DNA of 40,591 nt, taken from IMG/VR virus record IMGVR_UViG_3300033145_000251, positions 1 through 40,591 of that record; one strand, given 5' to 3'. The DNA comes from a virus. This document shows positions 8,432 to 37,833 of this stretch, piece by piece. A model generated the notes under the pieces. The model did not search any database. It saw only the letters and a list, made by a program, of their open reading frames with translations, and was not told the origin of the DNA. Numbering within the stretch: position 1 is the stretch's first letter; every line of letters begins with the position of its first letter. A program made the position numbers and the translations under genes.

Positions 8432-8657
8432 TTTTTTCCTTTCGTAGCAGTTTATCCATGTCAACATTTTCTTGTTCTTTTAGCTCGATGTGATCTTTGA
8501 TATAAGTATTGACCGCAAACAGCAAGGATGATGCCTCTATCATATCCAATACGGTTTTGTGCTTTAGCCCTGTAGTGTTGTTAATCTGATTATCGATAGC
8601 TTTCTTTGCTTTTTCCAACCTCGGCAATATCAGATTAGTTTGTATTTCTACTTGCAT
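8421..8657 (-). CDS. Small helical protein (78 aa)
   Basis: The protein is almost all predicted helix and ends in a basic tail (RKEKNER). It sits directly before the exonuclease and overlaps it by 11 bases, so it may assist recombination, but no domain is recognised. AAAGGAG precedes the ATG and lies inside the upstream HNH gene. Confidence 0.65.
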   Translation of the reverse strand: MQVEIQTNLILPRLEKAKKAIDNQINNTTGLKHKTVLDMIEASSLLFAVNTYIKDHIELKEQENVDMDKLLRKEKNER

Positions 8658-9135
8658 ATTTCTCCTTTCTTAACTTCCAATGAAGTTTTACATGACAACT
8701 ATTGCATAAGGTAATTAAATTGTTTAAGTTATTGTTGTTTATTATTTTCCCTCTACCATTACCATCTATATGATGAACAATTAGGTTTAGATATGTGCCA
8801 CATTCCTGACATTTATATTTATCTCTATCTAATACCTTATACTTATTTCCACCAAAATATTTTTTGTTGTTTTTGGCTTTACGTTTTTCTATATATATGC
8901 CTGGGTTTTTTTCGTAATGTTTCCTTTTATATTCTAAGTACCTTATGTTATTTTCTCTATAATGTGCTTTTTGATATTCCCTTAATTCTTTTATGTTATT
9001 ATAATATCGTTGTTTCTGATATTCTATTAAACACTTCTTGCATTTGCTTGCACCTCTATAGAAACTTTCTAAGGATTTCTTGATACCGCACCCACTACAT
9101 TCTTTCTTAATTTTTATTAGTTTATCTATTGCCAT
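8635..9135 (-). CDS. HNH endonuclease with N-terminal zinc finger (166 aa)
   Basis: The N-terminus has C13-xx-C16 and C32-xx-C35, followed by a helical repeat region with Y-rich KxHYRENN-type units. The C-terminal HNH core is C109-xx-C112, HHIDGNGRG (H121, H122), NNLNNL and C144-xx-C147-H148. This domain order is common in phage free-standing HNH nucleases and resembles the nuclease at the end of the early unit. It overlaps genes on both sides by more than ten bases, which suggests that it inserted between them. Confidence 0.9.
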   Translation of the reverse strand: MAIDKLIKIKKECSGCGIKKSLESFYRGASKCKKCLIEYQKQRYYNNIKELREYQKAHYRENNIRYLEYKRKHYEKNPGIYIEKRKAKNNKKYFGGNKYKVLDRDKYKCQECGTYLNLIVHHIDGNGRGKIINNNNLNNLITLCNSCHVKLHWKLRKEKYASRNTN

Positions 9136-10112: not shown

Positions 10113-10862
10113 TTATATAACATAGTAGTACTTGCCATAAATTATAAATGGGTTCTTACGGGGTATGTTTATTTGATGCACATTCCATTTATCATCTACA
10201 AACTTAACTATTGATATACAGTATTGCCAGTTCGGCCAGGGTTTCTTAAACCATTCCCAGGCCAGTTGAAAATCACATAGGCAACCGTTCTCAAAGAATG
10301 CAAAGTCCCCTGCCTTATTACTGCAACAGCACTTTCCACTTCTGTGGGTATGACCCATCATCCCACTTACCCATTCATCATACAGTTCACCTTTGGCTGT
10401 ATAGCCTGCAAACTTTCTGGCTTTCGTACCGTGCTGATAGTGGAATCCTTTATGTTCATATTCATCACCATAAGCTATTGACCTGTACCCATAATCTTTG
10501 AGTCCTATCATATCATCCATATCTACAAGGTCTTCTAAGGCGTGATGTGCTGATAAGTAAGTATTAAATCTATCCTCGTGATTGCCATATAGGAATATAT
10601 GTTCAGCTTTTTTTGTAGCTTCTGCCACTCTTGCATTGGCTATATACCCTGATTTAAAATCTTGTGCGATAGTGGTAACCCTGCTGAGTCGTTTATCAAA
10701 TTTAGATATTGAGGGGCAATCAACCTGATCTCCGAGATTAATAAGTTTATCTGGCTGTAGGTTTTTAGCGAACTTTAAAACTAAATTAAATATTTCTTCC
10801 GGGTAATAGGGTGCGTGTAAATCGTTTATTACAAGATGAGTTTCTATGGAATTTTTATCCAT
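10113..10862 (-). CDS. Calcineurin-like metallophosphoesterase (249 aa)
   Basis: The five signature motifs of the family are present in order: NDLHAPY (D14, H16), GDQVD (44-48), GNHED (93-97), an HG motif near residue 144 and GHTHR (170-174). These residues bind two metals and hydrolyse phosphoesters. Phage members may act on DNA ends, nucleotides or RNA caps; the substrate cannot be told from sequence. AAGGAGG precedes the ATG. It sits in the nucleotide and DNA modification group. Confidence 0.88.
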   Translation of the reverse strand: MDKNSIETHLVINDLHAPYYPEEIFNLVLKFAKNLQPDKLINLGDQVDCPSISKFDKRLSRVTTIAQDFKSGYIANARVAEATKKAEHIFLYGNHEDRFNTYLSAHHALEDLVDMDDMIGLKDYGYRSIAYGDEYEHKGFHYQHGTKARKFAGYTAKGELYDEWVSGMMGHTHRSGKCCCSNKAGDFAFFENGCLCDFQLAWEWFKKPWPNWQYCISIVKFVDDKWNVHQINIPRKNPFIIYGKYYYVI

Positions 10863-10918: not shown

Positions 10919-11581
10919 TTAAAACAATACCTCTTGCCCTAGTCTCTTAACTGCTATGTCGCAATACTCTTTTGATATTTCTATGCCTATACATTTTCTG
11001 CCTAAGTCTTTGCAAGCTCTTGCTGTTGTGCCAGAGCCGAGGAAGGGGTCGAGGATTATGTCGGTATCCTTAGAGTATTTATTTAATATCCAGTTAATCA
11101 CTGGTAGTGGCTTCTGTGTTGGGTGTACTCTTTTTTCTTTACACTTTGTATTACCCTGTAACATACCTTGCCACTTATATTTATAAATTCTTACTGCAGA
11201 CTTAAAAGATGTCCACGCTAATTCACAATCAGCAAAATCACTTTTCCCATTATCTTTATCCCAAACAATATAACAACTTGTATCCCCCAAAATAGAACCG
11301 TAGTAGTTACCACCAAAGATAATCTGATTTTTGGATACTCGTTTTATCTCTAAAAAATATTCATCACCTATTCTTTTTTTATCCCATTTGTAATTACCAT
11401 AATCTCGACAAGCTGTAATGTTTGACCTACTAAGATTTTGTTTGTTATTTTCATTAATACCATATGGTGGGTCGGTTAAACATAAATCAAATTGGTTATC
11501 TTTAAACTCTTTCATAACCTCTAAACAATCACCATTATAAATCGTACAGCTATCGTCTTGGTAATATGGTTTCATAATCAT
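10919..11581 (-). CDS. DNA N-methyltransferase, copy 1 (220 aa)
   Basis: The catalytic motif TDPPY (36-40) comes before HPTQKP (153-158) and the SAM-binding DPFLGSGTTA (178-187). This order is that of beta-class amino-methyltransferases, which methylate adenine N6 or cytosine N4. The first 45 residues and the last 43 are nearly identical to the second methyltransferase at 38.8-39.5 kb, while the centre, which reads the target, differs. No restriction partner is near. It probably protects phage DNA or alters a regulatory site. Confidence 0.92.
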   Translation of the reverse strand: MIMKPYYQDDSCTIYNGDCLEVMKEFKDNQFDLCLTDPPYGINENNKQNLSRSNITACRDYGNYKWDKKRIGDEYFLEIKRVSKNQIIFGGNYYGSILGDTSCYIVWDKDNGKSDFADCELAWTSFKSAVRIYKYKWQGMLQGNTKCKEKRVHPTQKPLPVINWILNKYSKDTDIILDPFLGSGTTARACKDLGRKCIGIEISKEYCDIAVKRLGQEVLF

Positions 11582-11931
11582 TCTACAAATCTTTTACAAT
11601 TCAGTTCTTCAAAATTATAATATACTGGTATGCCTAACTGTTCAGCTCTTGCAATTTCTGCAATAGTTCCTTTTGATTTTCCGTAATTTGATAGCACCAA
11701 CACTGCATCTGATACCTCCATCCAAGCTACCGAATATTCTTTTATCATTTCAATAGTGAGTTCTTCATCTTCCCGTAGTTGCAAAAATAACTGTCCGTCA
11801 ATGAATGGTGAGAACACTGCATAACCTGCTAACATTAATTCCAGTGATGCCCTTTGCCCTTTGCGGATATTAGCCAGATATTCTACTTCAGTACCAGCTT
11901 GTATTGGCCCCGCTACATATATTCTTTTCAT
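11578..11931 (-). CDS. DUF4406-like nucleoside deoxyribosyltransferase fold (117 aa)
   Basis: The protein starts with IYVAGPI and has an ANIRKGQRASLELMLAGYAVFSPF segment (given in part) and a late SKGTIAEIARAEQLGIPVYY helix, the pattern of DUF4406 and nucleoside 2-deoxyribosyltransferase-like proteins. Such proteins bind or process nucleotides or nucleosides. In phages they often stand beside nucleotide-modification genes, as here. The start is directly after the upstream stop. The exact substrate is unknown. Confidence 0.8.
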   Translation of the reverse strand: MKRIYVAGPIQAGTEVEYLANIRKGQRASLELMLAGYAVFSPFIDGQLFLQLREDEELTIEMIKEYSVAWMEVSDAVLVLSNYGKSKGTIAEIARAEQLGIPVYYNFEELNCKRFVE

Positions 11932-12183
11932 TTAATCATCTACTTCCTTTAATATCCATCCCATCTTGTTAGCTTCTTTTTCAGATATATATTTGATTTT
12001 TGGTTCTTCGTCAAAATTTAATACAGTATCGCAAAAACCACAGGCACAAATAGTAAGTTCTATTTTTTTTCCTCCAGCAACTACTTTATACATATCAGTC
12101 ATATCTAAAATGACATCTTTTTTACAATCAGGGCAGTATGCTATTGGTATAAATTTTTTATCCTTATCTACCATTCTTTTCAT
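11932..12183 (-). CDS. Zinc-ribbon protein with a structured 5' leader (83 aa)
   Basis: The protein has CPDC (17-20) and a CACGFC cluster near 46-51, giving one zinc ribbon, followed by an acidic stretch and a helix (SEKEANKMGW). No enzyme motif is visible. It is preceded by AAGGAG and by a 130-base leader that folds as a three-way junction RNA, so its expression may be controlled in cis. Its neighbours act on nucleotides. Confidence 0.7.
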   Translation of the reverse strand: MKRMVDKDKKFIPIAYCPDCKKDVILDMTDMYKVVAGGKKIELTICACGFCDTVLNFDEEPKIKYISEKEANKMGWILKEVDD

Positions 12184-12203
12184 TTAATCTCCTTAATTTT
12201 ATT

Positions 12204-12290
12204 ACGGTTTTAAACTGACTATCTGCTAAAGCTCCCGTTGCCAGTCAGGATATTAAGGGGAGGTAGCCTTAGTCCTTCCTCCCCAACCGT
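12204..12290 (-). ncRNA. Candidate structured leader RNA: three-way junction with kissing loops
   Basis: On the minus strand P1 pairs ACGGTT (12285-12290) with AACCGT (12204-12209). Inside it, P3 pairs GGGGAGG (12278-12284) with CCTCCCC (12257-12263), directly abutting P1, and P2 pairs CTGACT (12243-12248) with AGTCAG (12215-12220). The loops of P2 and P3 carry AGCTTTAG and CTAAGGCT, complementary over eight bases with one G-U pair. Compact junctions with joined loops are typical of ligand-sensing RNAs. I do not match it to a known class. It ends 21 bases before the zinc-ribbon start codon. Confidence 0.6.
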
Positions 12291-12317
12291 CAACCCATAC
12301 CAACTTGAGCAGTTGAC
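12289..12317 (-). promoter_or_regulatory. Hairpin just upstream of the junction RNA
   Basis: GTTGAC and GTCAAC (12312-12317 and 12289-12294) pair perfectly. The 3' arm shares two bases with the P1 stem of the three-way junction, so the two helices compete at the edge or stack. It has no U-run, so it is not a terminator. It may be part of the same RNA element. Confidence 0.5.
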
Positions 12318-12318
12318 T

Positions 12319-12576
12319 TTATAATCTCCTTAATATTTCACAGCAATAGCATATTGTATCTATGCAACTATCTTTTATAACTTTATTATTGTTAGGTGAG
12401 TTTTTACATCGTATTGCTTTAACTTTGATTATTGAACAAATATCATCTATACCATACTCTGAATAACTGCCTACCATATTGCCATCAGAGTTATATTCAT
12501 ATCCACGCTTTACGGCTATTTCTAAACAATCTTTCACTATTCTTTCATATAGCTTTCGGAGTTCTTGTTCATTCAT
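12319..12576 (-). CDS. Nmad1/DUF1599-like protein (85 aa)
   Basis: The N-terminal helix (LYERIVKDCLEIAVKRGYEY) and the motif DDICSIIKVKAIRCKNS, with a final DSCIDTICYCCEILRR helix, resemble the short all-helical DUF1599 (nucleotide-modification-associated domain 1) proteins. These occur in phages with modified bases and are thought to act on nucleotides. It is close to DUF4406-like and DNA methyltransferase genes, which fits. The start follows the peptidase stop without a clear ribosome site, so it is likely coupled. Confidence 0.55.
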   Translation of the reverse strand: MNEQELRKLYERIVKDCLEIAVKRGYEYNSDGNMVGSYSEYGIDDICSIIKVKAIRCKNSPNNNKVIKDSCIDTICYCCEILRRL

Positions 12577-35292: not shown

Positions 35293-35847
35293 TTAACTAA
35301 CTAATTGTAATTTTAATTCTTCTAACTCTTTTTTAAGCTCTATATTCTCTTGATATACTTTCTGGACTTTGGTATTGTGCTCGTTCCCGGGTAATAATTT
35401 TAAGTTCTCTATTCTATTATCATCTTTAATACCATTTATGTGATGAACAACTTCATAAGAATTTAAATATCTTCCTATGCGTTTTTCCATTATCAAACGA
35501 TGTTCTAAAACATAACCTGACGCATTTGCGTTAGGATGTTCATAAGCGCGGACTTGAATATAACCACTATGTTTGTATCTTCCACCTTTCCAATTCCAAT
35601 GTTTATTACCCTTGTGTGATTCACTCATTTTTAATCTAGTTTCTTCTGATAAATTTTCTCTTTTACGCGCTTTACTCATCTTTAATCTAGTTTCTTCTGA
35701 AGCTTTAGTTCCTTTATGCGCTTTACCCAAGTTTCTTCTATGTTCTTCAGAAAAATGTTTTCCAAACCAATGACTCTTTTTACCTTTTCGCGCCAGACTC
35801 ATTTTTAATCTAGTTTCTTCGCTATGTTTTTTACCAAGCTGTGGCAT
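35293..35847 (-). CDS. NUMOD3-HNH homing endonuclease (184 aa)
   Basis: Four NUMOD3-type repeats (SEETRLKMS and variants, about residues 9-75) lead into an HNH_3 domain with [15 protein letters not shown] (H116) and [17 protein letters not shown] (H125, H126, N128). A C-terminal coiled coil ends the protein. NUMOD3 repeats guide DNA binding in homing nucleases. It lies between terminase and portal genes, a favoured site for such invaders. AGGAGG precedes the ATG chosen; a start 13 codons earlier has no site. Confidence 0.9.
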
Positions 35848-35938
35848 TTGTTCCTCCTCGTACAAGGTGGGGATTGGTACGAGCAACCCCCATGATATTA
35901 ACTATGTTTAGTATAACATATTTACTAATTAAATTCTA

Positions 35939-37685: not shown

Positions 37686-37759
37686 TGGTAGCGGTAGTGA
37701 GAATCGAACCCACCTGTTAGGCTTATGAAACCTACTAACTCACCAGAGTTTTTACCGCA
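37686..37759 (-). tRNA. tRNA(CAU), initiator-like
   Basis: A 74-base cloverleaf with encoded CCA: acceptor TGCGGTA/TACCGCT, D arm AACT/AGTT with GG in the loop, anticodon stem TAGGT/GCCTA with loop TTCATAA (anticodon CAU), and T arm GTGGG/CTCAC with TTCGATT. Base 1 and 72 (U-U) do not pair, the D stem has A11-U24, and the anticodon stem has G29-C41 and G30-C40; these recall initiator tRNA, though the third G-C pair is replaced by U-G. Position 8 is A rather than U. Elongator Met or Ile2 remain possible. Confidence 0.88.
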
Positions 37760-37763
37760 TTGA

Positions 37764-37833
37764 TGGAGATGCCGGCATTGAAGCCGGGTTAAGTCGTACC
37801 CGTTATGGGTAAGACTTCTTCCCTGTCATCCCC
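37764..37833 (-). ncRNA. tRNA-like element lacking a D arm
   Basis: A 7-bp acceptor (GGGGATG with CATCTCC, one G-U) encloses a T arm (CCGGC/GCCGG, loop TTCAAT) and a long hairpin (AAGTC-TACCC paired with GGGTA-GACTT around one mismatch, loop of five). A normal D arm is missing, no U33 stands before a possible anticodon, and the 3' end reads ATCA rather than CCA. It stands four bases before the tRNA(CAU) and begins at the stop codon of the upstream gene. Decayed tRNA or a tRNA mimic are both possible. Confidence 0.55.

Follow-up and report, generated by a model that had tools for sequence, protein, structure and literature searches.

A candidate three-way-junction RNA in the late genes of a siphophage-like virus, with counterparts in two related phages

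The stretch of DNA analysed here (the window) was one entire IMG/VR record of 40,591 bases; genes for the portal, major head, head morphogenesis, terminase, and tail mark the virus as siphophage-like. The genes lie on the minus strand nearly throughout, and HNH endonuclease genes were noted at 35293-35886 (minus strand), between the portal and terminase genes, and at 8635-9135 (minus strand). Downstream of the peptidase/endolysin genes lies an 85-aa ORF, and the non-coding gap studied here separates this ORF from an 83-aa ORF and the genes that follow it:

12184-12318, minus strand: GC-rich, non-coding gap of 135 nt holding the RNA element (ORF list, GC content)
11932-12183, minus strand: 83-aa putative zinc-ribbon ORF, CxxC...CxCxxC (ORF list; weak match to phrog_2834)
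11578-11931, minus strand: DUF4406/nucleoside 2-deoxyribosyltransferase-like gene
10919-11581, minus strand: DNA N4/N6 methylase gene
10113-10862, minus strand: metallophosphatase gene, the marker that ties the window to two related contigs (L008 and L009)

The 83-aa ORF gave no Pfam match, and the zinc-ribbon label comes from its cysteines alone. A preliminary description of this locus had spoken of a nucleotide-modification neighbourhood, a fair term in view of the deoxyribosyltransferase-like and methylase genes downstream, and of a block more GC-rich than the phage, which agrees with the 43.7% measured for the gap against 36.2% for the phage; the value is also high among the spacers of this phage. 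A strong operon terminator was located by a terminator scan at 9376-9351, beyond the metallophosphatase gene and a small holin-like ORF. The scan found no intrinsic terminator (a GC-rich hairpin followed by a U run) within the gap, nor did the gap contain a promoter match on the minus strand. Given the missing promoter match, the element probably lies inside one long late transcript, and we therefore treat it as intercistronic and not as the true 5′ leader it had first been taken for.

All the structural components initially proposed were found in this gap, on the minus strand:

12204-12290, minus strand: three-way junction of P1, P3, and P2 (stem search, shuffles, minimum-energy fold of a 98-nt stretch)
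12290-12285, minus strand: P1 5′ strand, ACGGUU, 6 bp (stem search; paired changes relative to L008 and L009)
12209-12204, minus strand: P1 3′ strand, AACCGU
12284-12278/12263-12257, minus strand: P3 hairpin, GGGGAGG/CCUCCCC, 7 bp, 14-nt loop
12248-12243/12220-12215, minus strand: P2 hairpin, CUGACU/AGUCAG, 6 bp, 22-nt loop
12272-12265, minus strand: CUAAGGCU, P3-loop strand of the loop-loop pairing (absent from L008 in the alignment)
12233-12226, minus strand: AGCUUUAG, P2-loop strand of the loop-loop pairing
12317-12312/12294-12289, minus strand: upstream hairpin, GUCAAC/GUUGAC (sequence; centroid fold)
12238-12254, minus strand: motif shared with the relatives, AAUAUCCU-GACU-GGCAA, running from the linker through the P2 5′ strand into the P2 loop

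P3 directly abuts P1, the upstream hairpin overlaps P1 by two bases (12290-12289), and CUAAGGCU and AGCUUUAG are complementary over eight pairs, one of them G-U.

We evaluated how unusual this arrangement is with a shuffle test for junctions having three stems of at least 6 pairs, in which the longest match between hairpin loops was recorded with one G-U allowed. When the leader was dinucleotide-shuffled, about 6% of the shuffles contained a 6/6/6 three-way junction, loop pairing aside. Together with a loop pairing of at least 8, it was seen in 7 of 25,000 shuffled leaders, a figure that serves as a guide only, since the pattern was picked after the sequence had been seen. When both strands of the window were searched, this was the only junction with a loop pairing of at least 7. 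The folding energy was ordinary, with z-scores of -0.68 for the 135-nt gap and -1.00 for a 98-nt stretch, and the minimum-energy fold of the latter was the junction itself. For the leader plus 9 nt (including the start codon), the nested junction reached -34.1 kcal/mol and was 1.5 kcal/mol less stable than another fold at -35.6 kcal/mol; the energy model behind these values omits the loop-loop pairing, and the isolated loop duplex amounts to about -8 kcal/mol.

Comparison with known RNA classes gave no assignment. Rfam 15 yielded no match in the window at the curated score, the best sub-threshold matches being eukaryotic or weak, and no match in L008 or the other related contigs scanned. Literature searches found no description of such an element. 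The earlier statement that it belongs to no known class is supported by this Rfam search and by the counterparts in two related phages described below. Purine-type riboswitches are built on a three-way junction with docked L2 and L3 loops, and the window element resembles them in its junction, its complementary hairpin loops, and its place before nucleotide-themed genes. It differs from them in that P1 abuts the first hairpin without a linker and in having eight contiguous loop pairs; Rfam reported no match, and the loop complementarity is absent from L008, with no match of at least 6 pairs in the L009 leader. The element is not an established riboswitch. The packaging RNA of the phi29 family likewise has a three-way junction and complementary loops, and its sequence is poorly kept among phages. 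Here too Rfam gave no match, and the present phage encodes a portal and a large terminase subunit of the kind common among tailed phages. We also rejected by eye, on either strand, a tRNA-like interpretation of the element, given its arm order and the lack of a T loop. GOLLD and ROOL are orphan structured phage RNAs of unassigned role that form kissing loops in complexes and often lie near tRNA genes (PMC12286853). They share with the window element, whose kissing loops are predicted, the status of orphan phage RNAs with such loops, although they are several times longer than its ~90 to 135 nt; their covariance models gave no match in the window, L008, or the other related contigs.

The preliminary description had suggested a search of related phage contigs for the leader, and counterparts were found at the equivalent position in two phages. 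L008 and L009 are IMG/VR contigs with a metallophosphatase 77% identical to that of the window, and they were reached solely via this protein. In both, a non-coding leader of ~300 nt fills the segment from the lysis genes to the metallophosphatase gene. Searches by blastn (phages, plasmids), by exact loop and stem patterns (viral contigs), and with the zinc-ribbon or 85-aa protein revealed no relatives, and metallophosphatase and terminase profiles run against genome contigs gave two distant terminases and no more. The gene after the RNA is the metallophosphatase gene in L008 and L009 and the zinc-ribbon ORF in the window, and no zinc-ribbon homolog was found in either relative. That the element is the leader of a zinc-ribbon gene is doubtful as a reading, because the RNA of both relatives precedes a metallophosphatase gene. 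The relatives' leaders comprise several domains. Compared to shuffles, the L009 leader was strongly structured (z -3.05), whereas folding was weaker for that of L008 (z -1.31). The first 129 nt of the L009 leader (L009:5684-5812, plus strand) gave z -4.33, with the shared motif sitting in a hairpin.

A covariance model was built from the window element alone, and L008 and L009 were searched with filters off. The top match, L008:5782-5842 (17.4 bits, E 0.013), fell within the equivalent leader, and nothing in another 170 kb from related contigs scored above 14.2 bits. With default filters, no match was obtained in the whole related records; the L008 leader surfaces once the filters are off. In the alignment, AUGGGUUGACGGUUGGGG...UACCUCCCCUUAAUAUCCUG of the window is set against AUAGGUUGGCGGUGGGG...UAGCUCCUCUUAAAUAUCCUG of L008. 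This alignment was equalled by 5 of 2000 shuffles and by none of 880 genomic stretches under one scoring scheme, while three other schemes were weaker and most reached only ~3 to 5%. All three leaders contain the 8-mer AATATCCT followed 3 to 4 nt on by GGYAA, and the pattern AAUAUCCU-N3-4-GGYAA occurs in each of them and at no other place in 578 kb. Chance alone produced a comparable shared pattern in 8 of 4000 shuffled triples (0.2%) and 24 of 3000 genomic triples (0.8%), rates to be read with the fact that the shared motifs were picked by eye before testing. The three leaders also have in common AAAACCG at the boundary of the P1 3′ strand.

MAFFT alignments of the elements left P1 unpaired and were excluded from the counting of pairs; P1 was compared by hand. 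A scan for a P1 pattern (GGUU, a GC-rich 6-bp stem, and AA ahead of the 3′ strand of the stem) found three places in the relatives' leaders (~0.65 kb) against three chance matches in the rest of the 558 kb scanned; the P1 of the window itself, in which three of six are G/C, narrowly misses the cut-off. Across four elements (one in the window, two in L008, and one in L009), three P1 positions change as pairs (C-G/U-A, A-U/G-C/C-G, and U-A/G-C). These changes are supportive but not independent, because P1 pairing was a condition for finding the elements. Of the compensatory changes that had been named as possible support, those in P1 were present; the loop-loop pairing was not kept. In this comparison set of three leaders, one of them barely alignable, comparative support is modest for P1 and the junction and less for the predicted P2 and P3.

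The loop-loop contact was absent in both relatives. L008 has UAGCU (5 nt) in place of the window's 14-nt P3 loop, so one kissing strand is missing, and no junction with a loop-loop match of at least 6 was present in the leader of L008 or L009. We therefore rejected kissing loops as a conserved feature and regard the docked loops as limited to this phage, where the 8-bp contact would be a stabiliser specific to it. What stands of the original interpretation is a structured RNA of no known class; the docked loops as a family feature and the zinc-ribbon-leader reading do not share that standing. We are fairly confident that a real RNA element lies here, and it is probably a member of a small, unclassified family of structured RNAs in one phage group.

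In the window, base pairing is possible between the linker UUAAUAUCCU and AGGAGAUUAA at the Shine-Dalgarno sequence; that site was predicted to be unpaired at 0.76 to 0.98 in the junction fold compared to 0.23 to 0.77 in the alternative. Shuffles matched the pairing energy between leader and Shine-Dalgarno region in 15% of cases for the window, 14% for L008, and 98% for L009, and neither Shine-Dalgarno accessibility nor pairing strength differed from shuffles in any of the three leaders. Sequestration of the Shine-Dalgarno sequence was hence rejected as a proven mechanism, and in view of these matched energies we give cis control as the likeliest reading with modest confidence only. The intercistronic place before differing genes suggests that the element either affects the whole downstream cassette or is an RNA with a role of its own.

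The reading we lean toward, tentatively as a whole, is a cis-acting intercistronic RNA from a small new family in the late operon. In this reading, the gap would encode a structured element within a late polycistronic mRNA. Its core would consist of P1, a hairpin adjoining P1, an AAUAUCC linker, a second hairpin with GGYAA, and an A-rich strand returning to P1. The family would be small and fast-evolving, its members in this siphophage group lying after the lysis genes and before the metallophosphatase cassette, with a single junction in the window and an additional domain in the relatives. Its likeliest action would be in cis on downstream gene expression, possibly as a switch in which the junction fold, if adopted in the cell, leaves the Shine-Dalgarno sequence free and the nearly isoenergetic alternative pairs the linker with it. 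If true, an unclassified structured RNA would join the few known from phages, at a locus after the lysis genes in a late operon, where control of late expression is poorly understood, and the three leaders with their shared motif would provide a seed for covariance searches in metagenomes.

A bolder version, possible but doubtful, is a modular class of phage RNAs with tandem three-way-junction domains and the AAUAUCCU-N3-4-GGYAA signature, located between lysis and metallophosphatase genes, to which the window member adds an 8-bp kissing contact that would dock the arms or join two RNA copies. At present, the sample of three leaders is too small to name a class. It is also rather unlikely that the element is a small RNA, structural or acting in trans, that is cut out of the late transcript and plays no direct part in translating the following gene. 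The constant position of the RNA before a gene that differs between phages would suit such an RNA, as would the relatives' ~300-nt, multi-domain leaders, long for a simple leader, and anti-Shine-Dalgarno pairing no better than chance. Against it, neither a promoter nor a terminator match was found at the gap.

Equally, we think it unlikely that the fold arose by chance, in an ordinary spacer whose likeness to the relatives is residual or accidental. Energy z-scores near zero, the ~3 to 5% given by most alignment schemes, the frequency of junctions without loop pairing, and the recurrence of a comparable, eye-picked motif in shuffled and genomic triples count in favour of this reading. Yet the shuffle test, the covariance match, the P1 pattern, and the shared motif converge on the same place, and the gap is GC-rich for a spacer in this phage.

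Direct repeats were found at both ends of the gap:

12185-12197, minus strand: 13-nt direct repeat ATTAAGGAGATTA, downstream copy, with the Shine-Dalgarno sequence of the zinc-ribbon ORF
12322-12334, minus strand: upstream copy of the 13-nt direct repeat ATTAAGGAGATTA, where the 85-aa ORF ends

TTAAGGAGATTA has exactly two copies in the window, one per gap end, with 13 identical bases when the neighbouring A is counted, and the zinc-ribbon ORF is bracketed at 11921 and 12173 by GATTAAATGAAAAGAAT, an exact 17-bp repeat. This suggests that both the gap and the zinc-ribbon ORF were acquired through exchange at the starts of genes. Exact repeats of 13 to 17 bp in ribosome-binding/start regions were seen at neighbouring genes at 2517/2664 (17 bp), 11921/12173, and 12185/12322, a layout that would fit gene exchange at these boundaries. 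Because start-region repeats turn up more than once in this phage, we did not accept the 13-bp flanking repeat as proving a mobile element. A DNA-level element, i.e., a recombination boundary or small insertion whose stems, if they act, do so as inverted DNA repeats, is improbable: the exact repeats at the ends of the gap and of the zinc-ribbon ORF look as they would after insertion or exchange, but they are not special here because both hold translation-start sequence and a similar one lies at 2517/2664, the relatives' counterparts at the same place speak against a recent insertion, and searches found no further copy of the element, although diverged copies could escape them.

Separate tRNA-like folds were observed elsewhere. 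In the window, positions 37761-37833 (minus strand), directly upstream of tRNA-Met (37686-37759), gave a tRNA-like fold with z -4.63 that was not reported by ARAGORN; it combines a 7-bp acceptor-like stem with one long arm and a 5-bp T-like arm (loop UUCAAU), lacks a D stem, and has the 3′ end AUCA. Stretches ending in CACGUCCACCA were present in the two related contigs (L008:7405-7500 and L009:7840-7937, both plus strand), between a holin-like ORF and a terminator, and neither was reported by ARAGORN or Rfam. The fold of the tested L009 piece was not significant. The fold of the L008 stretch (z -5.35) combines an acceptor-like stem with a long arm and a T-like arm, and recalls the tRNA-like domain of tmRNA without the tag.
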